Assembly (NCBI GenBank): GCA_016795065.1
Contig: JAEUIU010000002.1
Location: 1-64,000, forward strand
Origin: Phycisphaerae bacterium
GTDB lineage: Bacteria; Planctomycetota; Phycisphaerae; Phycisphaerales; SM1A02
Direction: 5' to 3'
Length of the DNA: 64,000 nucleotides
Positions 47,989 through 64,000 of this stretch are shown here, piece by piece (position 1 is the stretch's first letter; each line of letters opens with the position of its first letter). The translations under genes and the position numbers were made by a program. Below the pieces are notes generated by a model. That model saw only the letters and a program-made list of their open reading frames with translations, did no database searches and was not told where the DNA came from.

Positions 47989-48025
47989 AAAGCGGGCGAC
48001 GAGACTTGAACTCGCGACATTCAGC
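47989..48025. repeat. Truncated extra copy of the tRNA-Gly attachment core
   Basis: 37 bp identical to the start of the 48-bp core at 48042-48089, and preceded by the same GGGTTGTC. The two copies are offset by exactly 53 bp. It may be a remnant of an earlier insertion or a tandem duplication of the attachment region. Confidence 0.8.
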
Positions 48026-48041: not shown

Positions 48042-48089
48042 AAAGCGGGCGACGAGACTTGAACTCGCGACATTCAGCTTGGAAGGCTG
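48042..48089. repeat. Left attachment site of the integrative element
   Basis: A 48-bp perfect copy of 57680-57727, covering the 3' end of tRNA-Gly from the anticodon stem outwards. Everything to the right belongs to the element and the left flank is chromosome. The partial tRNA here lacks its 5' half. Confidence 0.92.
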
Positions 48090-48273
48090 CAAGCGAGACT
48101 CTGCAACTGGCGATTCGTCAACGGCTTCTGTGAGCCCCGCCCCGAACGACCGCGCAACGGGCCCACTAACGCCACCCGAAGCAGTCGCCGCTTGGCTCGA
48201 TGCCTGCCCCGTCGACCTGGCCGCGAACCTGAGGACGGCGATTGCGGCTCTCCTCGGAGGACCGACGCCATGA
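48088..48273 (+). other. Displaced 3' segment of the integrase gene (61 codons)
   Basis: Reading on from the attachment core in the integrase frame gives 61 codons ending in TGA at 48271-48273, including LTPPEAVAAWLDACPVDLAA and LRTAIAALLGG, a plausible amphipathic helical tail. After excision the core at 57680 would be joined to this segment without a frame change, replacing the TGA used in the integrated state. In the integrated state it has no start of its own other than a TTG at 48037, so it is probably silent. The join is deduced from the two core sequences. Confidence 0.7.
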
Positions 48274-48549
48274 CCACCTGGCCTACACTGCCGACCGAGA
48301 CTCTTGGCGCGCGAAGGCCGGCGAGGCTCTCGGCAACCCCTTCCCCTACGCCCCCAGCACCGAGGGCGGGCGAGCCCCCCGCCACCGCCTCACGGACGGA
48401 CGGCCGCACCCCTAGACGCCCTGACCCCATCGCCCGCTCTCGTCGCCAGTCGCTAGGGAGATCGCCCACCCTACCGCCTGTTACCCCCTGCCGAGGGTGC
48501 ACTCGATTCCCGGATTCGGTCCCGATTTGGTTGGCTGGCTCTCATTCTG
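48274..48549. other. Spacer between the displaced integrase end and the serine recombinase
   Basis: The frame of the serine recombinase is open upstream to an ATG at 48270 that overlaps the preceding TGA, but composition (Pro/Arg/Thr-rich) suggests it is not coding. Another frame encodes HLAYTADRDSWRAKAGEALG and could be part of a small gene with a TTG start. Neither is convincing. Confidence 0.35.
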
Positions 48550-48575
48550 TGTTACCATTGGACCGAAGGGTAACA
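48550..48575. promoter_or_regulatory. Inverted repeat just upstream of the serine recombinase start
   Basis: TGTTACC and GGTAACA are perfect 7-bp arms with a 12-base centre, ending 3 bases before the ATG at 48579. Its position suits an operator or autoregulatory site. Confidence 0.5.
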
Positions 48576-48578
48576 ACA

Positions 48579-49310
48579 ATGGCGAAGCGAATCACCAAGA
48601 CCAGCGGCCGAAACACCTCCGAGCGAATCGCCTTCGGCTACGTCCGGGTGTCGACCGAGGGGCAGGCCACCGACGGAGTGAGCCTCGATGCCCAGCGGAC
48701 CGCCATCACCGCCTACTGCCAGATGAACGGGCTCCGGCTCGTCGCGATCGAGGCCGACGAGGGGATCAGCGGCAGCAAGACCAGCAACCGGCCGGGGCTC
48801 CGCAAGGCCGTCGACGCAGCGTGCGAGGCCGGCGCGGTCCTGATCGCCTACAGCCTCTCCCGCATCGCCCGTAACACGATCGAAACCCTTGAACTGGCCG
48901 AGCGGCTCGAGGATGCCGGGGCCGACCTGGCGAGCCTCTCCGAGCGGATCGACACGAGCGGCGCCTGCGGCCGCATGGTGTTCCGGATGCTGGCCGTCCT
49001 CGCCGAGTTCGAACGCGACCAGATTGCCGAGCGGACCCGCATGGGCCTCGCCGAGAAGCGACGTCGCGGCGAGAAGACCGGAGGCCAAGTCCCCTTCGGC
49101 TTCCGGGCCGAGGACCAGGGCGGCACGCTCATGCTCGTCGAGGACGCCTCCGAGCAGGCAACGTTGGCCGAGGCTCGCCGGCTCCATGCTGCCGGGCTCT
49201 CGCTCCGAGCAATTGGCGCGGAACTCGACGCCAAGGGCATGGCACCCAAGGCCGGCGGCAAGTGGCATGCGAAGACGCTGCGGGATGCGATGGAGCGACC
49301 AACGGGGTGA
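48579..49310 (+). CDS. Serine recombinase (resolvase/invertase family)
   Basis: Cuts and rejoins DNA through a serine-linked intermediate. The N-terminal catalytic domain has FGYVRVSTEGQATDGVSLDA with the nucleophilic Ser, then DEGISGSKTSNRPGL, LSRIARNTIETLEL and LAEFERDQIAERTRMGL. The C-terminal 75 residues (GGQVPFGFRAEDQGGTLM through LDAKGMAPKAGGKW) resemble the start of a recombinase DNA-binding domain, ending short at 243 residues. It lies next to the left attachment site and could act as a resolvase, inversion enzyme or second integrase. Confidence 0.9.
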   Translation: MAKRITKTSGRNTSERIAFGYVRVSTEGQATDGVSLDAQRTAITAYCQMNGLRLVAIEADEGISGSKTSNRPGLRKAVDAACEAGAVLIAYSLSRIARNTIETLELAERLEDAGADLASLSERIDTSGACGRMVFRMLAVLAEFERDQIAERTRMGLAEKRRRGEKTGGQVPFGFRAEDQGGTLMLVEDASEQATLAEARRLHAAGLSLRAIGAELDAKGMAPKAGGKWHAKTLRDAMERPTG

Positions 49311-53908: not shown

Positions 53909-54574
53909 ATGGCCACGACAACGCGACAGACCCGACACGCCCGCCCCGCAGCTCGCAAGGCCTCGCCCCAGGCGGGACCTCGCCAGCCAAACCGCATGAA
54001 CAGGACGGAGAGCTCTCCCGACGCGAGGACGCCTAGGGCCCGGATCCTCACTCCCAACGCGGCAGCCGCGGCCCTCGGCTTGGACGGTGACCGCGGGGCC
54101 GCATGGCTCATCGAGCAGGCAAACCGCTACCGCATCGACCACGTCCGTCATGGGAACTCGGTGTACTTCGTTGCCGAGGACCTCGCCGAGTCCATCGCCT
54201 GGCTCTGGTGGCTGAGCGATCACGTTGGCGCGACAGAGCGGCACCGCCTGCGCGTTGAGGCGTTCGACGATCGCATCGCCATGCTCGACCGCGACATCGC
54301 CTCGGCCCCCCCGTCGCTGCGGATCTGCAAGGCCCTGGAGAACCGTGGCCATCGCTACGGGATCGGTCAGTACGTGCGAGCGGTCGACGTCGACCAGGCC
54401 AGCGCCCTCGGATGCGACGTCGGTGAGGATCGGTGGCCCGTTGAGATTCGTGCGGGGCAGGTCGACGCTTCCGTGGCGATGGCCTTGTGGTTCCGGATGC
54501 CCGAGGCCGCTCGCCGAAAGGCGGCGCGAACGCTCTGTGATGACCCGAAGGGAGCGACCCGTGGCCAGCACTGA
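53909..54574 (+). CDS. Element protein with one winged-helix-like segment
   Basis: 221 residues from ATG 53909 (GGAAGG 10 bases upstream); an in-frame TTG at 53810 would overlap the previous gene. After a basic N-terminal tail, ILTPNAAAAALGLDGDRGAA and SVYFVAEDLAESIAWLWW repeat the pattern seen in the preceding gene. The rest is helical. The stop overlaps the xis-like start. Unknown function, likely DNA binding. Confidence 0.55.
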   Translation: MATTTRQTRHARPAARKASPQAGPRQPNRMNRTESSPDARTPRARILTPNAAAAALGLDGDRGAAWLIEQANRYRIDHVRHGNSVYFVAEDLAESIAWLWWLSDHVGATERHRLRVEAFDDRIAMLDRDIASAPPSLRICKALENRGHRYGIGQYVRAVDVDQASALGCDVGEDRWPVEIRAGQVDASVAMALWFRMPEAARRKAARTLCDDPKGATRGQH

Positions 54575-54839
54575 AGCCACCACAACCTCGAGGAACCGAC
54601 ACCGGGGGCCCGGGGCCGGCGAGCCTCCCCCCCGACGCGAGGACGCGACCTCGCCGGCCTCTCTCCTCTGGAGCGTGAAGCGGACGGCCGAGGCGCTCTC
54701 GATCAGCGTGCGGCTCCTCTACTCGCTCACCCAGGCCGGCGAGCTTCCCGCGGTTCGCATCGGGCGAATGGTCCGCTACCGCGTGGCCGACGTCGAGGCG
54801 TTCGTCAACCGACATGGGGTGAAGGGCGGGCCCGGGTGA
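54561..54839 (+). CDS. Excisionase-like helix-turn-helix protein
   Basis: 92 residues from GTG 54561, with GAAGGGAG at good spacing. The C-terminal 50 residues are a clear excisionase/MerR-type wing-helix: LWSVKRTAEALSISVRLLYS and LPAVRIGRMVRYRVADVEAF. Such proteins direct the integrase toward excision. It is coupled to the gene before and after (GTGA overlap). The N-terminal 40 residues are disordered. Confidence 0.78.
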   Translation: MASTEATTTSRNRHRGPGAGEPPPRREDATSPASLLWSVKRTAEALSISVRLLYSLTQAGELPAVRIGRMVRYRVADVEAFVNRHGVKGGPG

Positions 54840-56236
54840 GCGGCCCCCGCCACGGACGGAACCGAAGCCACGGCAAGGACGCCGACCAGCGGGGATCAAG
54901 GCAACCCGAAGCGACGAGCCAGCCGCCGACGGCGTCCCCAATGAACGTGTGGAAGATCGCCGTTCGGATCGGATGCGATCTGCCTCCGGACGCTTCCGCG
55001 AACGAAGTGCTCGTGCTCATCGTCGTGGCGAGCTACATGCCGCCTCCGCGCTTCGTCGCTTTTGTCGGACTCGAACGGCTTGCTCGGGAGTGCCACCTCT
55101 GCCCCGACACCGTGAGGAAGTTCCTCCGGAAACTTGAGGACCGCGGCGTGCTGGATGGCGACCCGCCAATGGCGCGACGGCGCGGTGGCCGCTCGGCTTC
55201 GGTGCTCTGGCGCCGAGGACCTAACTGGCCGAAGGAACTCGCTGGTGGCACCCCGTCGGAAACCCCCGATGCGGTCGGGGGTTTGGACTCAGAAACCCCC
55301 GATGCGGTCGGGGGTTTCGGTCACACGAACCCCCGAGAAACCCCCGAGAAACTCCCGACAAACCCCCGACAAACCCCCGACGGTTTCGGGGGGAGTATGG
55401 AGTATGGAGATATGAGCGCTAAGCGCCCCCCCGTCGTGGCGCCCGCTCCCCCCCAACCGCGGGGGAGTCGCGATCGCGACGGACCGCCCGACGCGACGCC
55501 GAGGGCGTCGGTCGGTCCGTCGCTCCCCAACCGATTCGACGAGGCTCCGAGTTGTACAGCTCAGTCGCTCGCTGCCAAGTTCGGCGTTCTGTCCCCAAGC
55601 ATGGCCCTTCTGCGAACGATCGACTCCGCCCTGGACGAGGTTCGGGCCGAGCTAACGGCATCAGGGCGATCGATATCGGTTCCTGCCCTCTGTGAAGCGG
55701 CGCGCCAAGAACCTCCGGGAGTGCTTCCGGTGGATCTGGCCGACTGGATCAGGCGGCAACTGGGAACGGCCTCGCCGGCCCCACCTGCGCCGAGCATCGG
55801 ACCTCTGGACCAGGGCCCTCCCGCCAAGCGACAGGGAAGGCCGGCGAGTCCACCGCTCAGGCTCACAGGGACCGCAGACCCCCCGCTTCCTCCGATGCCC
55901 CCAGCGAGCCCCACGAAGCTCGGGGCAGAGGCTGCCCAGCTAGCTCGCCGGCTCATCGACGATGGCAGACTGAACGAAGAGCAGCTCGCCTTTCTCACCG
56001 ACGAGGCGAATCGAACGGCCGACCCGCAAGCCCACAAGCTCGAGCGGCTCCGACGAGTCGAGGCCGGCGGCTCGGTCGAAGTGACCGAGGCATGGAGAGC
56101 CGCCCAGGCGGTCGCCCGAAGCGAGAGGGAGACGGACCTGGCCAAGCAGGTGGCGACGCTCCGAAAGGCCTCACCGTCGACGCCGAGGCAGGCCGGCGCG
56201 GGTGAGCCGGCGACGGGACGGCCCATCGCCGGTTAG
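54836..56236 (+). CDS. Replication-initiator-like protein with internal iterons
   Basis: 466 residues starting at GTG. Residues 36-110 form a helix-turn-helix domain of the kind found in phage and plasmid replication proteins: MNVWKIAVRIGCDLPPDA, LERLARECHLCPDTVRKFLR and KLEDRGVLDGDPP. The middle (140-185) is encoded by iterated DNA and reads as Pro/Glu/Thr repeats. The C-terminal half is Pro/Ala-rich with a final helical segment. By position (after xis, before int) and by the iteron array it is likely the element's replication initiator, as in phages whose origin lies inside the initiator gene. No polymerase or helicase motif is seen. Confidence 0.6.
   Translation: MSGPRHGRNRSHGKDADQRGSRQPEATSQPPTASPMNVWKIAVRIGCDLPPDASANEVLVLIVVASYMPPPRFVAFVGLERLARECHLCPDTVRKFLRKLEDRGVLDGDPPMARRRGGRSASVLWRRGPNWPKELAGGTPSETPDAVGGLDSETPDAVGGFGHTNPRETPEKLPTNPRQTPDGFGGSMEYGDMSAKRPPVVAPAPPQPRGSRDRDGPPDATPRASVGPSLPNRFDEAPSCTAQSLAAKFGVLSPSMALLRTIDSALDEVRAELTASGRSISVPALCEAARQEPPGVLPVDLADWIRRQLGTASPAPPAPSIGPLDQGPPAKRQGRPASPPLRLTGTADPPLPPMPPASPTKLGAEAAQLARRLIDDGRLNEEQLAFLTDEANRTADPQAHKLERLRRVEAGGSVEVTEAWRAAQAVARSERETDLAKQVATLRKASPSTPRQAGAGEPATGRPIAG
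55260..55317. repeat. Two identical hairpins in the replication-like gene
   Basis: AAACCCCCGA, loop TGCGG, TCGGGGGTTT occurs at 55260-55284 and again at 55293-55317, a 33-bp period. Each is a perfect 10-bp palindromic stem and contains the same core as the iterons that follow. Confidence 0.9.
55327..55391. repeat. Five 11-bp direct repeats plus an inverted copy (iteron-like array)
   Basis: Units AAACCCCCGAC/G follow each other without gaps at 55327, 55338, 55349, 55360 and 55371; the first has G for its first A and the third has one T. An inverted copy (TTTCGGGGG) follows. The 11-bp period puts every unit on the same helix face. It resembles a replication-origin or regulator binding array. 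Confidence 0.85.
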
Positions 56237-56249
56237 CTTGGGATCGATT

Positions 56250-56287
56250 CAACCTCCGCACGTTCGGTGCGGATCAATCGGAGGTTG
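56250..56287 (+). promoter_or_regulatory. Hairpin that would hide the integrase ribosome-binding site
   Basis: CAACCTCCG (56250-56258) is perfectly complementary to CGGAGGTTG (56279-56287), which contains the GGAGGT Shine-Dalgarno 6 bases before the integrase ATG. An inner stem CCGCAC/GTGCGG competes for the first arm. The leader can therefore adopt open and closed forms. Confidence 0.65.
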
Positions 56288-56291
56288 CGGC

Positions 56292-57728
56292 ATGCGACGA
56301 GCGAAGGAACGCGGACGCGAGAGGCGAAGGGCCCGCGGAGCGGGCTCCATCTTCAGGCGGCGAGAGGGCTCGCCCTGGCTTGTCGCCTGGGTTGATCACG
56401 ATGGGCGGCGACGCGAACTCAACACCAGGACGCTCGATCGGGCGACGGCGGCTCGGATCCTCGCCAAGCGGATCGAGGCCGCGGCGGTCCGACGTGAGGG
56501 CCTCGTCGATCCCGCAATGGACCGCATCGCCGAGGCCTCTCGCTCACCGCTCACCGATCACGTTGCGGCCTACGTCACCCACTGCCGCAACGTTGGGCAG
56601 GATGCCCACTCGCTCAACCAGAAGGAGCGGCACTTGCTGCGATTCGTCGAGGCCAGCGGGGCGAAGCGGATCGCCGACCTCAACGCCGAAGCCCTCGCCT
56701 CGCACATGCGACGCTTCCTCGAGCGTGGCCGCTCAGCCCGAACGGCGAACTTCATCCGACAAATCGCGATCGCCTTCGGCTCGTGGCTCGTTCGCACCGG
56801 GCGCGCCGAGGCCAACGCCATGCGGACGGTCCCGAAGCGCGACGAGCAGATTGACCGACGCCGACGGAGGCGAGCTCTCACCGACGACGAGCTTGAGAGA
56901 CTCCTCAACGTGGCCCGGAGCAAGGGCCGAGAGGCTCTCTACCTTGCGGCCGGGTTCGCCGGGCTGAGGCGAGGCGACCTCGAGTCGATCACCTGGGCCG
57001 ACGTCGACCTCACCGCGGGGACGCTCACGATTCGGGGAGGCAAGGCGAAGCGACTCGACGTCCTTCCCATCCACCCGCAACTCGCCGACGCCCTGGCCAC
57101 CCTCCGGGTGACCTCGCCGGCCCTTCCCACCGTGAGGGTGTTTCCCGACGCCAACAGCCTGGACCGCATGCGACGGGAGGACTTCATCGATGCGGGGCTT
57201 GCGCATTGGGAAACGGTGACCGACGCCAAGGGCGAACCGCTCCGCTATGCGTGCGGTGCCTTGCGGAGGCGGTTCGTGGCCATCGACGAGAACGGGGACG
57301 CGATCGACCTGCACGCCCTTCGGACGACCCTGGGCACGAAACTGGCCCGGGCCGGCGTGGCTCCCCAAGTGGCTCAGCGGGTGATGCGGCATGGGGACTA
57401 CCGGACCACCCTGCGGCACTACACCGTTCTTGGGCTCACCGACACGAGCAAGGCGGTTTCGGCTCTCCCAGCGATCGGGGCCGGCGAGGCGCGGGCGACG
57501 GGCACCACCGACGCGGCTCCGGACGGGAGCGCCCGCTTAACAGCCAGCGTACGGCCCGCCACAAGCGGGCGCGGCGTGCCTGAGCGTGCCGATAAGACGG
57601 CCCCGCCGCACAACTCACGGGGCCGCGCTAAAGGCCTAATGGATGCCGACTTGTGCCGTTCGGTGCCGGTCGGTTCTGAAAAGCGGGCGACGAGACTTGA
57701 ACTCGCGACATTCAGCTTGGAAGGCTGA
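56292..57728 (+). CDS. Tyrosine integrase of the element; C-terminus encoded by the attachment core
   Basis: 478 residues. N-terminal basic region and arm-binding-like domain (GSIFRRREGSPWLVAWVDHD), core-binding domain (LTDHVAAYVTHCRN), then the catalytic domain: FAGLRRGDLESITW (first Arg), DLHALRTTLGTKLA (His-x-x-Arg), RVMRHGDYRTTLRHY with the catalytic Tyr. The C-terminal tail after about residue 400 is disordered. The last 15 codons (KRATRLELATFSLEG) are the antisense of the tRNA-Gly 3' half, and the stop is supplied by the chromosome. On excision the frame would run into 61 further codons. SD GGAGGT, ATG 6 bases later. Confidence 0.92.
   Translation: MRRAKERGRERRRARGAGSIFRRREGSPWLVAWVDHDGRRRELNTRTLDRATAARILAKRIEAAAVRREGLVDPAMDRIAEASRSPLTDHVAAYVTHCRNVGQDAHSLNQKERHLLRFVEASGAKRIADLNAEALASHMRRFLERGRSARTANFIRQIAIAFGSWLVRTGRAEANAMRTVPKRDEQIDRRRRRRALTDDELERLLNVARSKGREALYLAAGFAGLRRGDLESITWADVDLTAGTLTIRGGKAKRLDVLPIHPQLADALATLRVTSPALPTVRVFPDANSLDRMRREDFIDAGLAHWETVTDAKGEPLRYACGALRRRFVAIDENGDAIDLHALRTTLGTKLARAGVAPQVAQRVMRHGDYRTTLRHYTVLGLTDTSKAVSALPAIGAGEARATGTTDAAPDGSARLTASVRPATSGRGVPERADKTAPPHNSRGRAKGLMDADLCRSVPVGSEKRATRLELATFSLEG
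57680..57727. repeat. Right attachment site of the element, inside tRNA-Gly
   Basis: Second copy of the 48-bp core, here continuous with the rest of the intact tRNA gene. The element therefore restores the tRNA 3' half, as usual for tRNA-targeting integrases. Confidence 0.92.
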
Positions 57729-57753
57729 CGCTCTACCACTGAGCTACGCCCGC
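57682..57753 (-). tRNA. tRNA-Gly (anticodon TCC)
   Basis: On the minus strand a complete cloverleaf: acceptor GCGGGCG with CGCCCGC, D-arm GCTCAGTGGTAGAGC, anticodon loop CTTCCAA (TCC), T-arm GCGAGTTCAAGTCTCGT. It is 72 bases with no encoded CCA. The integrative element lies at its 3' side. Confidence 0.95.
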
Positions 57754-58593: not shown

Positions 58594-58607
58594 ATCTCGA
58601 TCGAGAT
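58594..58607. promoter_or_regulatory. 14-bp perfect palindrome before the Cys-rich protein gene
   Basis: ATCTCGATCGAGAT lies 17 bases upstream of the ATG at 58625, just before the GAGGAG ribosome site. It may be an operator or a chance palindrome. Confidence 0.35.
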
Positions 58608-58624
58608 TGTTGAGGAGAAACGAA

Positions 58625-61342
58625 ATGCGCGTGAGTCACTGGTCCTTTGTGGCCACCGTGGCGACCGCCTCGATGCTTGCCGCTTCGACGGCGAGCTTCG
58701 CTGGTGATCCCTGCTCTGTTTCGGCAAACGATTGCTGCATCGCGGGCGTGGGCCCGGGCTGCAGCGACTCCGAATGCTGCAACGCCGTGTGTGCGGTCGA
58801 CTTCTTCTGTTGCTCCGTCGAATGGGACGGGAATTGCGCGAGCGAATCAGCGGCCATCTGCGTTGGCTGCGGCGCTGGCTCCTGCATCGTCGATTGCAAC
58901 CGAGCAACGACCGAGGAGGTGGAGCCGTGTGGCGCCGACCTCAACGGTGGATGCAATGACGTCATTAAGGGCGCCGTCTCGTTCGCCGACGTTGGTGACA
59001 TCATTTGCGGCAACTACTGGGCCGACGGCAGTACTCGAGACACCGACTGGTACGAGTTCTCCCTCAGCGAGAACAAGGTGCTCTCGTTCTCCGTCACCGG
59101 TGAGATCCCCACCACGCTCTTCGTCCTGAGCGGCGGGTGCCCAGCGTCGATCCTCGCTTCCGCAACCACCGTCCCCGGCGCCTGCGATCCGGCGATCATC
59201 AGCGACCTCTGCCTCGTGACAGGTACCTATCGCGTTTTCGTCGCCCCGTCGGACTTCGTGGGCACTCCCTGCGATGTCGATGCCGGATACCTGCTGAGCA
59301 TCATTGACACCGGGAACGTCTGCACTTCGATTCCGGGAGACACCTGCGAAGACGCTCTGCCCGTCATCGAAGGTCTCAACCCGGTCTCTACCCTTGGCGC
59401 GTTCACCGGCGGTGACCCGCTTCCGGAGGAGTGCCTGTCGTTCGGTTCGGTGACCATGTTCAACGACACCTGGTACGTGTTCACGGCCAGCCAGTCCGGC
59501 CTGTACCGAATCTCGACCTGCGACCTGGTCGACTTTGACAGCCGACTCGCCTTGTACTCGGGCGAATGCGACAACCTGACGTTCCTCGCTTGCAATGACG
59601 ACGGCGGAAGCTGCGGCGGCTTTACCTCCGAGATGCTCACCAACCTCGAGGCGGGAGTGGAGTACCGGGTTCGCCTCGGCGGATTCGGTGCCACCGCGTC
59701 GGGAAGTGGCGACCTCCTCATTGAGCCGTTTGTCGGCTGCGACATCGCTTGCCCTGAAGGCGGCGTTCCAGAGGCCGAGCTCTGCGGCGAGGACCTCAAC
59801 GGCGGCTGCAACGGCGGCGGCACGTACGAGGATATCGCCACGGGTACCTCGATCTGCGGCACGTTCTGGGCCGATGGGTCGACGCGTGACACAGACTGGT
59901 ATCGGTTCAACCTCGCGGAGGCGAGCAACGTCACCATGACGGTGCACGCGAACATCGACGTCACAATCGGCATTCTCAGTGCCACGTGCGACCCGGTCAT
60001 CTATGTGATCGAGGTTCAGCCCGGCTGCGGCGCGACGCTGTCGTTCTGCCTCCCTGCTGGCGACAACGTGGCGTTCGTCGCCCCGGCTAGCTTCTCCTCG
60101 CCGCCGTGCGGCAGCGGGATCCTCAACGACTATGTCCTGACCGTCGATCTCGGGGATGCGTGCGTCCCGATCACGTGTGGTTCACCCGAGACCGGTGATT
60201 GCTGCGTGGCCAGTGCGACACCCTACTGCAACGACGAGGAATGCTGCAGCATCGTCTGCGGCCTTGATCCGTGGTGTTGCTCGAACAGTTGGGACGGCAT
60301 CTGTGCAGACGAAGCTGCGGACTTCTGCGCTCTCTGCGCGGTTGATCCACCGGCCAATGACGAATGCCCAGGTGCTCCCGAGATCTTCGATGGTGAAACG
60401 GAGTTCTCGACGCTTGGCGCAACCACCAGCCCGCCTGCACTCGATCCGGCGTGCGACGAGGGCTTCGGAACCGCCTTCGTCCAGGACATCTGGTACTCCT
60501 ACACCGCGACATGCGACGGGACGGTGAATTTCTCCACCTGCGGTACGGTCGACTTCGACACCCGTCTCGCTCTCTACAGCGGTGATTGCGACAACCTCGT
60601 CTTGGTGGCCTGCAACGACGACGGTCTTGGCTGCCCGGGCTTCTCGTCCTCGATGGACGCCGAACTCTCCAAGGGTATCACCTACCTCTTGCGGATCGGT
60701 GGCTTCAGCGGCGACGGCACCGGCACCATCAACATCTCGTGCGGCGGCGGCGGTGGTGGCATCGAGAATGACGAGTGCGCTGACGCTCTCGTTGTGAACC
60801 TCGGAGCCAACGGCTTCACCAATGTGGGCGCCACAGGCGTGACCGTGTTGGCGGCTGAATGCATCTCGGCCGGCTCTGTCAACGTCAACAACGACATCTG
60901 GTACACCTACACAGCGACCGCAACTGGCCTTGCCACCATTTCGACGTGTGGCGCGGCGAATTTCGACACCCGTCTGGCCGCCTTCACCGGAGCGTGTGAC
61001 GACCTTACCCTCGTCGCCTGCAACGAGGATGCTTCGGGTTGCACCGGATTCACGTCGATCATGACCTTCGCGGCGACCTGCGGCGAGACCTACACGATCC
61101 TCGTAGGCGCCTTCGGGGCGGCGGGCTTCGGCACCGGGACGATCACCGTCTCGCAAGATGGCACCTGCCCATCGCCATGCCTAGGTGACCTGAACGACGA
61201 CGGCCAGGTTGGGGCTGTCGACCTCGCCCTCCTTCTCGGAGCGTGGGGTACCGCAGGCGGGCCGGCAGATCTCAACAACAATGGCTTGGTCGCCGCCGAG
61301 GACCTCGCCCTCCTGCTCGGCGCATGGGGCGATTGCCCATAA
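58625..61342 (+). CDS. Large secreted Cys-rich protein with PPC-like domains and C-terminal dockerin repeats
   Basis: 905 residues. Signal peptide (VATVATASMLAASTASFAG). Two Cys-rich modules share GDCC...CCS...WDG.CA (near residues 30-80 and 520-570). Beta-sandwich domains like bacterial pre-peptidase C-terminal domains alternate with them, marked by GTFWADGSTRDTDWYRFNL and DTWYVFTASQSGLYRISTCD. The C-terminus is a dockerin pair: GDLNDDGQVGAVDLALLLGA then DLNNNGLVAAEDLALLLGAW. It has a good ribosome site (GAGGAG) and a terminator. Likely cell-surface or released; no enzyme domain seen. Confidence 0.88.
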   Translation: MRVSHWSFVATVATASMLAASTASFAGDPCSVSANDCCIAGVGPGCSDSECCNAVCAVDFFCCSVEWDGNCASESAAICVGCGAGSCIVDCNRATTEEVEPCGADLNGGCNDVIKGAVSFADVGDIICGNYWADGSTRDTDWYEFSLSENKVLSFSVTGEIPTTLFVLSGGCPASILASATTVPGACDPAIISDLCLVTGTYRVFVAPSDFVGTPCDVDAGYLLSIIDTGNVCTSIPGDTCEDALPVIEGLNPVSTLGAFTGGDPLPEECLSFGSVTMFNDTWYVFTASQSGLYRISTCDLVDFDSRLALYSGECDNLTFLACNDDGGSCGGFTSEMLTNLEAGVEYRVRLGGFGATASGSGDLLIEPFVGCDIACPEGGVPEAELCGEDLNGGCNGGGTYEDIATGTSICGTFWADGSTRDTDWYRFNLAEASNVTMTVHANIDVTIGILSATCDPVIYVIEVQPGCGATLSFCLPAGDNVAFVAPASFSSPPCGSGILNDYVLTVDLGDACVPITCGSPETGDCCVASATPYCNDEECCSIVCGLDPWCCSNSWDGICADEAADFCALCAVDPPANDECPGAPEIFDGETEFSTLGATTSPPALDPACDEGFGTAFVQDIWYSYTATCDGTVNFSTCGTVDFDTRLALYSGDCDNLVLVACNDDGLGCPGFSSSMDAELSKGITYLLRIGGFSGDGTGTINISCGGGGGGIENDECADALVVNLGANGFTNVGATGVTVLAAECISAGSVNVNNDIWYTYTATATGLATISTCGAANFDTRLAAFTGACDDLTLVACNEDASGCTGFTSIMTFAATCGETYTILVGAFGAAGFGTGTITVSQDGTCPSPCLGDLNDDGQVGAVDLALLLGAWGTAGGPADLNNNGLVAAEDLALLLGAWGDCP

Positions 61343-61404
61343 GCCTAACTTGAGACCTTTCGATGACTTGTTGGGGGCCGAAGGGCCCCCACGGTGAACA
61401 AGTG

Positions 61405-61444
61405 CGGGCCCCCTCGAACGAACCGAGGGGGCCCGTTTCCTTTC
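61405..61444 (+). terminator. Intrinsic terminator of the 58625 gene
   Basis: CGGGCCCCCTCG and CGAGGGGGCCCG form a perfect 12-bp stem with a 7-base loop, followed by TTTCCTTTC, 63 bp past the stop. Confidence 0.88.
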
Positions 61445-61749
61445 ATCACAAGTCTCGAGGGGAGCCGTTCCCGCTTCGGCGCGAAGATGGGCAAGCTGCG
61501 CGAGACGACCCGCCTGGGTCTTCTGTGAGCTCGTCGGGAGCCACCAGTCTGGATCGGCTGCGACGATCGCCCGAGCCGGAGGGGAAAATCGGGGATCAGT
61601 TTCGGCCAAAGCCTCCCTAACCCGTTTGGAAACCTGCGGTCCGCTGTTATCTTCAAGGTGGGTCCAACCGCGCCGTGAGGTCGGCGCTGGTTTCGTTGGC
61701 CGGGAGACCCACCTTCCGTCGTCCCGGCGGCGGACAAGGAGATTTTGAG
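61445..61749. other. Spacer with candidate promoter of the last gene
   Basis: About 300 bp. TTGGAA (61626-61631) and TATCTT (61648-61653), 16 bp apart, are a candidate promoter; AAGGAG lies 8 bases before the ATG at 61750. Nothing else recognised. Confidence 0.45.
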
Positions 61750-64000
61750 ATGCGCGTGAGACCTTTCTTCTTTATCTGCACGATGGCGACCGCGGCACTT
61801 TGTACCGCTTCTACCTTCGCTGGCGGCGATCCCTGCAATCCCGGCTGCCCCGAAGGCGCTCTGATTGAGGCTGAGGCCTGCGGCGCTGACACCAACGGTG
61901 GCTGCAACGCCCCGTCGGGTGGCACCAGCAACTGCTGCACCGCTTGGTTCGGCCTTGGCTGCGATGACGTGACCTGCCAGGACATCGTCTGCGGTCTCGA
62001 CTCGTGGTGCTGCACCACCTCGTGGGACGGCCTCTGCGCCGCTTCCGCGGCCACGAACTGCCCCGAACTCTGCCCGCCCCCCGCTGACCCGTACGAAGCC
62101 ATCGCCTGCGGCGACAGCGTCTGCGGCACCTTCTGGGCCGACGGCAGCTTCCGCGACACCGACTGGTACACCTTCAGCCTCGACACGACGACCGAGGTCA
62201 CTTGGTCGGTCGCGAGCCTGACCGGCGTTGCTGCGTTCATTCTTGACAGCAACTGCCCGCCCTTCGTGATCGCCGTCGGCCAGGGCGCTTGCCCGACCTC
62301 GGTGACCTACTGCCTCGATGCCGGCTCCTACGTTGCCTTCGTTGCTCCGAACGTCTTCGCTGGCGTTCCGTGCGGCTCGGGCGACGCCAACAACTACGTC
62401 GCGACCCTGACCTGCGGTGGCGCTTGCGTCCCGCCGGCCTGCGGTGGCGAGACGACCGGCGATTGCTGCGTCGCGAGCGCGACCCCGTTCTGCAACGACG
62501 CCACCTGCTGCGAAGCGGTATGCGCCGCTGATCCGTTCTGCTGCAGCAACTCGTGGGACGGCCTCTGCGCCTCCGAGGCTGCTGGCATCTGCTGGCAGAT
62601 CTGCGGACCGGACTGCGACCTCACCTGCCCCGAAGGCGCGAGCCTTGAGGGCGAGGCCTGCGGCGAGGACACCAACGGTGGCTGCAATGCTCCTCCGGCT
62701 GGCACCAGCAACTGCTGCACCGCTTGGTTCGGCCTTGGCTGCGATGACGTGACCTGCCAGGACATCGTCTGCGGCCTCGACTCGTGGTGCTGCACCACCT
62801 CGTGGGACGGCCTCTGCGCCGCCTCCGCGGCTGCGAACTGCGGCGAGCTCTGCGCTCCGGCCGGTGATCCGTACGAAGCCATCGCTTGCGGCGAGACTGT
62901 CTGCGGCACCTTCTGGGCCGACGGCAGCTTCCGCGACACCGACTGGTATTCGTTCACGCTCGAAGCGGCGACCGAAGTCACGTGGTCGGTCCGTTCGGTG
63001 ATTCCAGCGGCTCTCTTCCTCCTCGACAGCGCTTGCCCGCCGTTCGTCTTCGCGAGCGCGGCTGGCGCGAACTGCCCCACCGAAGTGACCTACTGCCTCG
63101 AAGCCGGCTCCTACGTCGCCTTCGTTGCACCGAACATCTTCGCGGGCGTTCCGTGCGGCTCTGGTGAAGGCAACAACTACGTTGCGACCCTCACCTGCGG
63201 TGGAACCTGCGTTCCGCCGGCGTGCGGTGCAGAGGGAACCGGCGACTGCTGCGTCGCTGGTGCAGCTCCGTACTGCAACGACCTGACCTGCTGCGAAGCG
63301 GTCTGCGCTACTGATCCGTTCTGCTGCTCCGTCGCGTGGGACGGCCAGTGCGCCAGCGAAGCAGGCGCGATCTGCTTCGAACTCTGCGGACCGGACTGCG
63401 ACCTCACCTGCCCCGAAGGCGCGAGCCTTGAGGGCGAGGCCTGCGGCGAAGACACCAACGGTGGCTGCAACGCCCCGGCTGGTGGCAGCAGCAACTGCTG
63501 CACCGCTTGGTTCGGCCTTGGCTGCGATGACGTGACCTGCCAGGACATCGTCTGCGGTCTCGACTCGTGGTGCTGCACCACCTCGTGGGACGGCCTCTGC
63601 GCCGCCTCCGCGGCTGCGAACTGCGGCGAGCTCTGCGCTCCGGCTGGCAATCCGTTCGAAGCCATCGCTTGCGGCGAGACTGTCTGCGGCACCTTCTGGG
63701 CCGACGGCAGCTTCCGCGACACCGACTGGTACGAGTTCACCCTTGAGTCGGCCGCCGAAGTCACCCTCTCGGTGAAGTCGGTTGTTCCGGCCCAGCTCTT
63801 CTTCCTCGACACCGCTTGCCCGCCGGCGATCCTCGCCAGCGTTGCTGGCGCGTCGTGCCCGACCGAGCTGACGTTCTGCTTCCCGGCCGGTGGTACCTAC
63901 CGCGCCTTCGTCGGTACGACGATCTTCAACGGCCTGCCGTGCGGTTCGGGTGAAGGCAACAACTACGTTGCTACCCTGACCTGCGGCCCGGCCTGCGACG
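61750..64000 (+). CDS. Very large secreted Cys-rich repeat protein (5' part only)
   Basis: Open from ATG 61750 to the window end, at least 750 codons. Signal peptide (MRVRPFFFICTMATAALCTA), then a repeating block of about 260 residues: CPEGA...EACG.DTNGGCN, a module with NCCTAWFGLGCDDVTCQDIV and CCTTSWDGLCAASA, a PPC-like domain with CGTFWADGSFRDTDWY, and a second GDCCVA...CCEAVCA module. Two full blocks and most of a third are present. It is a paralogue of the preceding gene. The Cys spacing implies many disulfides, so it should fold outside the cytoplasm. Confidence 0.9.
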   Translation, partial: MRVRPFFFICTMATAALCTASTFAGGDPCNPGCPEGALIEAEACGADTNGGCNAPSGGTSNCCTAWFGLGCDDVTCQDIVCGLDSWCCTTSWDGLCAASAATNCPELCPPPADPYEAIACGDSVCGTFWADGSFRDTDWYTFSLDTTTEVTWSVASLTGVAAFILDSNCPPFVIAVGQGACPTSVTYCLDAGSYVAFVAPNVFAGVPCGSGDANNYVATLTCGGACVPPACGGETTGDCCVASATPFCNDATCCEAVCAADPFCCSNSWDGLCASEAAGICWQICGPDCDLTCPEGASLEGEACGEDTNGGCNAPPAGTSNCCTAWFGLGCDDVTCQDIVCGLDSWCCTTSWDGLCAASAAANCGELCAPAGDPYEAIACGETVCGTFWADGSFRDTDWYSFTLEAATEVTWSVRSVIPAALFLLDSACPPFVFASAAGANCPTEVTYCLEAGSYVAFVAPNIFAGVPCGSGEGNNYVATLTCGGTCVPPACGAEGTGDCCVAGAAPYCNDLTCCEAVCATDPFCCSVAWDGQCASEAGAICFELCGPDCDLTCPEGASLEGEACGEDTNGGCNAPAGGSSNCCTAWFGLGCDDVTCQDIVCGLDSWCCTTSWDGLCAASAAANCGELCAPAGNPFEAIACGETVCGTFWADGSFRDTDWYEFTLESAAEVTLSVKSVVPAQLFFLDTACPPAILASVAGASCPTELTFCFPAGGTYRAFVGTTIFNGLPCGSGEGNNYVATLTCGPACD
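61846..64000 (+). repeat. Tandem repeats of 780-783 bp in the last gene
   Basis: The block starts TGCCCCGAAGGCGC at 61846, 62626 and 63409. Long stretches, for example around 61940-62040, 62720-62820 and 63500-63600, are almost identical in DNA, with few synonymous changes. This implies recent duplication or ongoing gene conversion. Confidence 0.88.

Follow-up and report, generated by a model that had tools for sequence, protein, structure and literature searches.

The window, a 64-kb stretch of Phycisphaerae DNA (contig JAEUIU010000002.1, positions 1 to 64,000), carries an integrative element of ~9.6 kb that is bounded by two 48-bp att repeats. attL (48042-48089) is a copy of the 3' part of a tRNA-Gly(tcc) gene and an exact direct repeat of attR (57680-57727), which overlaps the tRNA-Gly(tcc) gene itself (57682-57753, minus strand). 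A tyrosine integrase gene is located on the plus strand at 56292-57728 (Pfam Phage_integrase, E 2e-13; PHROG_1, E 1e-40). It probably starts at ATG 56292 within an ORF that opens at 56202, and it ends at attR. With a tyrosine integrase adjoining att repeats of a tRNA 3' end, the element has the hallmarks of a tRNA-targeted integrative element. Further upstream lies a probable excisionase gene, xis (54561-54839, plus strand, within ORF 54225-54839), which matches Pfam HTH_17 (E 4e-10) and the PHROG_66 excisionase family; its start codon was deduced from the sequence and its last 4 bases overlap the start of the following gene, rep. No helicase, helicase loader or primase was recognised in the element, no phage structural gene was recognised among the ORFs searched, and PADLOC identified no defence genes.

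The replication-initiator-like gene rep (54836-56236, plus strand) occupies the interval between xis and the integrase gene, the place to which the original prediction had assigned an HTH protein with a repeat array in mid-gene. It encodes 466 aa when read from GTG 54836, or 431 aa from ATG 54941, with an N-terminal winged helix at about aa 55-104. Matches to known families are weak: Pfam HTH_36 (PF13730) scores 22.5 bits (E 1e-4), which lies below the gathering cut-off of 25 bits, and PHROG_391 'replication initiation O-like' is matched with E 1e-3 over aa 55-181. Pfam Phage_rep_O (PF04492) was not listed for the protein even at E 1, whereas lambda O scores 6e-36 in the same test. Searches of viral contigs, genome contigs and plasmids yielded no close relative of the protein; genomes of the class gave one marginal match only, and sequence searches of the PDB returned no relative. 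A structure predicted for the N-terminal part from the single sequence was of poor quality (pLDDT 53) and was set aside.

The array begins 113 bp behind the winged-helix domain and is located in the DNA that encodes the linker joining the protein's two halves. Two palindromic iterons of identical sequence, AAACCCCCGA-TGCGG-TCGGGGGTTT, form perfect 10-bp-stem hairpins at 55260-55284 and 55293-55317 (plus strand), their starts 33 bp apart, exactly as originally described. They are followed by five direct repeats at 11-bp steps (55327-55380, plus strand; starts at 55327, 55338, 55349, 55360 and 55371). The number and spacing of these repeats had been predicted correctly; the shared core is exact in three copies only, whereas the other two carry one mismatch each (copies include GAACCCCCGA at 55327 and AAACTCCCGA at 55349). 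Together with TCGGGGGGAG, the last direct repeat (55371) makes up a third palindrome, which is imperfect with 3 mismatches (55371-55395, plus strand). Seven exact AAACCCCCGA cores are present in 55260-55380, compared to a mean of 0.14 per window in 100 dinucleotide shuffles of the window. When the 4.99-Mb genome was scanned for tandem core pairs (at most 1 mismatch) and palindromes (at most 3 mismatches), this array was the single location found. One 3-mismatch match to the tandem pattern occurs elsewhere in the genome, and no comparable array or palindrome was found outside the locus.

Directly behind the array follows the stretch with the highest A+T content of rep (55391-55422, plus strand), a candidate DNA unwinding element within which GGAGTAT is repeated. 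Its A+T content is modest, reaching up to 56% over 25 bp compared to a rep average of 31%. Further downstream, a strong palindrome (55476-55523) has 19-nt arms, of which 18 of 19 positions pair, and a 10-nt loop. It is the sole palindrome of its strength in the window, none of 200 synonymous shuffles produced one, and it may be part of the proposed origin.

Repeats within a coding sequence might simply mirror a repetitive protein, and the original prediction had named conservation as protein only as a finding that would speak against it. The linker peptide is indeed rich in proline and threonine (ETPDAVGG, NPRETPEK), and ETP recurs in it. The repeat copies are, however, spread over codon phases 0, 1 and 2, so a repeated peptide does not account for them. 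Repeated 9-mers cover 116 bp of rep, whereas 2000 synonymous-codon shuffles, which preserve the peptide, give 3.5 bp on average and 69 bp at most (p = 0.0005). As all three codon phases are used and 0 of 2000 shuffles reach the observed coverage, the repeats are kept as DNA, not as protein. We rejected a protein-only origin of the repeats on these two grounds and regard the chance that the linker peptide explains them as negligible.

We examined HTH_36 genes as a family. Matches with E ≤ 1e-6 were collected from 397 genomes of the class and gave 60 complete genes. For each gene, the coverage by 9-mers occurring at least 3 times, on either strand and within 300 bp, was compared to 300 synonymous shuffles, and genes with p < 0.01 were scored as passing. 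Arrays were detected in 36 of the 60 genes; leaving out the window gene and another whose 'array' is masked N gives 34 of 58. Only 1 of 114 control ORFs from the same loci passed. Outside the class but within the phylum, 8 of 15 HTH_36 genes passed, and the lambda O positive control did so as well (p = 0.002) with its annotated iterons recovered. About 40% of the HTH_36 genes have no array by this test. Where present, the arrays mostly start 50-150 bp behind the HTH_36 domain, and their sequences differ between genes. Genes related to rep often share its layout across the phylum, with repeat sequences of their own. Same-strand repeats tend to be spaced 22-24, 33-36 or 44-47 bp apart and less often 11-12 bp, which corresponds to whole helical turns, in multiples of ~11 bp. 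Compared with the gene, the 50 bp after the arrays have a higher A+T content (median +12 points, p = 9e-8). The most A+T-rich 30-mer of the gene is found near the array end in 19 of 36 genes, with 4.0 expected; array-negative HTH_36 genes show a smaller A+T rise in the same part of the gene, the linker. The window gene fits the family pattern in the distance of its array from the domain, in its steps of 11 and 33 bp and in the A+T peak behind the array. Recognition of the iterons by the winged helix finds no support in covariation, as the similarity of the iterons did not correlate significantly with that of the winged helices (Mantel r 0.07, p 0.08) in this highly divergent set of proteins.

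Integrases about 50% identical to that of the element are present in other genomes of the class. In several related elements, the slot upstream of int is taken by a large DUF3987 or AAA-type protein, some of which match CHC2 zinc-finger or Toprim domains. Two elements with related integrases, L042 and L053, carry an HTH_36 gene upstream of int, each with an array of its own directly behind the winged helix: palindromic AACCCGCCA repeats in L042 and AAACCCCGTCA repeats in L053, whose integrase is about 32-35% identical. The proteins of L042 and L053 match PHROG replication-initiator families with best E values of about 2e-16 and 2e-17, respectively, and PHROG_391 with 6e-15 and 5e-13. L053 (genome G154) combines the HTH_36 initiator and its in-gene iterons with a DnaB-like helicase of its own before int and resembles a fuller version of the module; a search of phage records gave no match to L053.

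In-gene origins are already known from lambda, where palindromic iterons lie within the O gene (PF04492, PHROG_277) behind the winged-helix N-terminus and are flanked by an A+T-rich tract (PMC7466680). The window gene likewise has palindromic in-gene iterons in several codon phases behind a winged helix, with an A+T tract adjoining. Distant PHROG families such as PHROG_391 are shared as well, the window protein's own match to PHROG_391 being weak. The lambdoid comparison drawn in the original prediction is supported by the use of all codon phases, the helical spacing, the place behind the winged helix, the A+T tract, the recurrence of the architecture in 34 of 58 related genes and the behavior of lambda O as a positive control. 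There are differences, however. The window protein is of HTH_36 and not of Phage_rep_O type, its G+C-rich iterons are spaced 11 bp whereas lambda has four 18-bp iterons at 20-24 bp, and the window element has neither a recognised P-like helicase loader nor a phage structural gene. HTH_36 Rep initiators with iteron-like direct repeats and a predicted oriV beside rep have been described for the Paracoccus plasmids pAES7, pMARC3, pMOS2 and pAES1; in pAES7 a partial iteron overlaps the rep start codon, and in pKL1, a relative of pAES1, oriV lies upstream (PMC3832669). The window gene shares the HTH_36 type and the iteron-like repeats with these plasmids, but its array is located mid-gene and the element is integrated. 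In phage-inducible chromosomal islands (PICIs), the ori directly follows the 3' end of rep and has an iteron set on either side of an A+T region, and the module includes a primase homologue (PMC6092414). Like them, the window element is a small integrative element with int, xis and a replication module comprising iterons and an A+T-rich region. In contrast to PICIs, the array lies within the gene, no primase is recognised between xis and int, and the gene order deviates from that of PICIs. On the best-supported reading, the proposed origin would work like ori-lambda, but the protein is not a member of Phage_rep_O. In a small, partial literature search, in-gene iteron arrays were not seen described as a general feature of HTH_36 initiators, nor was their breadth in planctomycetes.

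We consider it likely that the array is the replication origin of the ~9.6-kb element, located inside the gene of its own lambda-O-type initiator. According to this model, Int and Xis would excise the element from the tRNA-Gly gene. The winged-helix N-terminus of Rep would then bind the AAACCCCCGA iterons, i.e. the two palindromes and the 11-bp-phased repeats, on one face of the helix to form an O-some-like complex, and the adjoining A+T-rich tract at 55391-55422 would open. The C-terminal part of Rep might recruit the host replicative helicase, which we propose because the element itself has no recognised helicase, loader or primase, and the excised element would be replicated. Placement of the iterons in the linker-encoding stretch would leave the peptide there free to follow the DNA. 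This reading builds on what was observed: repeats that are kept as DNA, the place they occupy in the gene, the A+T tract behind them, the att sites and a layout that recurs in relatives; as described for in-gene iteron origins, several iterons within the initiator gene are conserved as DNA and an A+T-rich tract, modest at 56%, adjoins them. Weighing against it are the weak family matches of the protein itself, the lack of a close relative, the modest A+T tract, the missing covariation and the array-negative HTH_36 genes.

Could the array act as something other than an origin? HTH proteins often autoregulate and in-gene binding sites can be roadblocks, so the array might be an operator from which the HTH protein represses rep and int from within its own gene, without any origin function. 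Operators are normally located at promoters, however, and a limited scan of 54500-56400 revealed no sigma-70-like promoter. The 22/33/44-bp phasing, the A+T tract and the fixed place behind the winged helix resemble known in-gene origins instead, and related proteins match replication-initiator families. We therefore regard a pure operator as unlikely.

Position and composition might also suggest a role in recombination or termination, as Int/Xis arm sites or as transcription terminator hairpins, given that the array lies between xis and int and that its G+C-rich hairpins end in TTT. Such a role appears very improbable: attR is 2.3 kb away from the array, a scan found no terminator-like site, and the same layout occurs in HTH_36 genes of many other genomes. 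A similarly slim chance is given to the idea that a REP/MITE-like palindromic repeat of the dispersed kind, or an array made by local slippage, landed in the linker by accident. Duplication could yield two identical 25-bp palindromes 33 bp apart, but no further copy with at most 3 mismatches was found in the genome, and many other HTH_36 genes have unrelated arrays in the corresponding position, which calls for a functional cause. The dispersed repeat was rejected on the basis of the genome scans.

Should the origin reading be correct, the initiator gene alone would suffice to locate the origins of dozens of mobile elements in planctomycetes, and these elements would provide candidate replicating vectors as well as natural initiator-iteron pairs for the study of site choice by winged helices. 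Beyond the window, we lean slightly towards the view that mobile elements throughout Planctomycetota share a very broad class of HTH_36 initiators, each a self-contained 'initiator plus origin' cassette, with the 11-bp-step array of the window as a compact variant of the usual 22-bp layout. If so, origin and initiator would travel together and the linker peptide would be dictated by the DNA; the sites could be read from the gene, and the specificity of the initiator could be predicted from sequence.

Several further observations concern the element and its surroundings. At the tRNA-Gly site of the same-genus genome G371 (L137), the element sequence was not detected; the right flank has been retained, and the left-flank gene lies about 25 kb away. 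Because of this distance, we regard the site as variable rather than as a clean empty site, which was not found in G371, and it seems to be a hotspot for change. attL is doubled, with a 37-bp copy of the att core (47989-48025) preceding the full 48-bp copy, the starts 53 bp apart, which may be what an earlier integration at this tRNA left behind. Besides the tyrosine integrase, the element encodes a serine recombinase with a resolvase domain (48192-49310). An inverted repeat, AACCTCCG...CGGAGGTT, occupies 56249-56286 in the gap that separates rep from int and could be an attenuator or a recombinase site. To the right of the element (58607-63812) lie repetitive cysteine-rich ORFs that probably encode extracellular proteins, one of them with a dockerin-like end.
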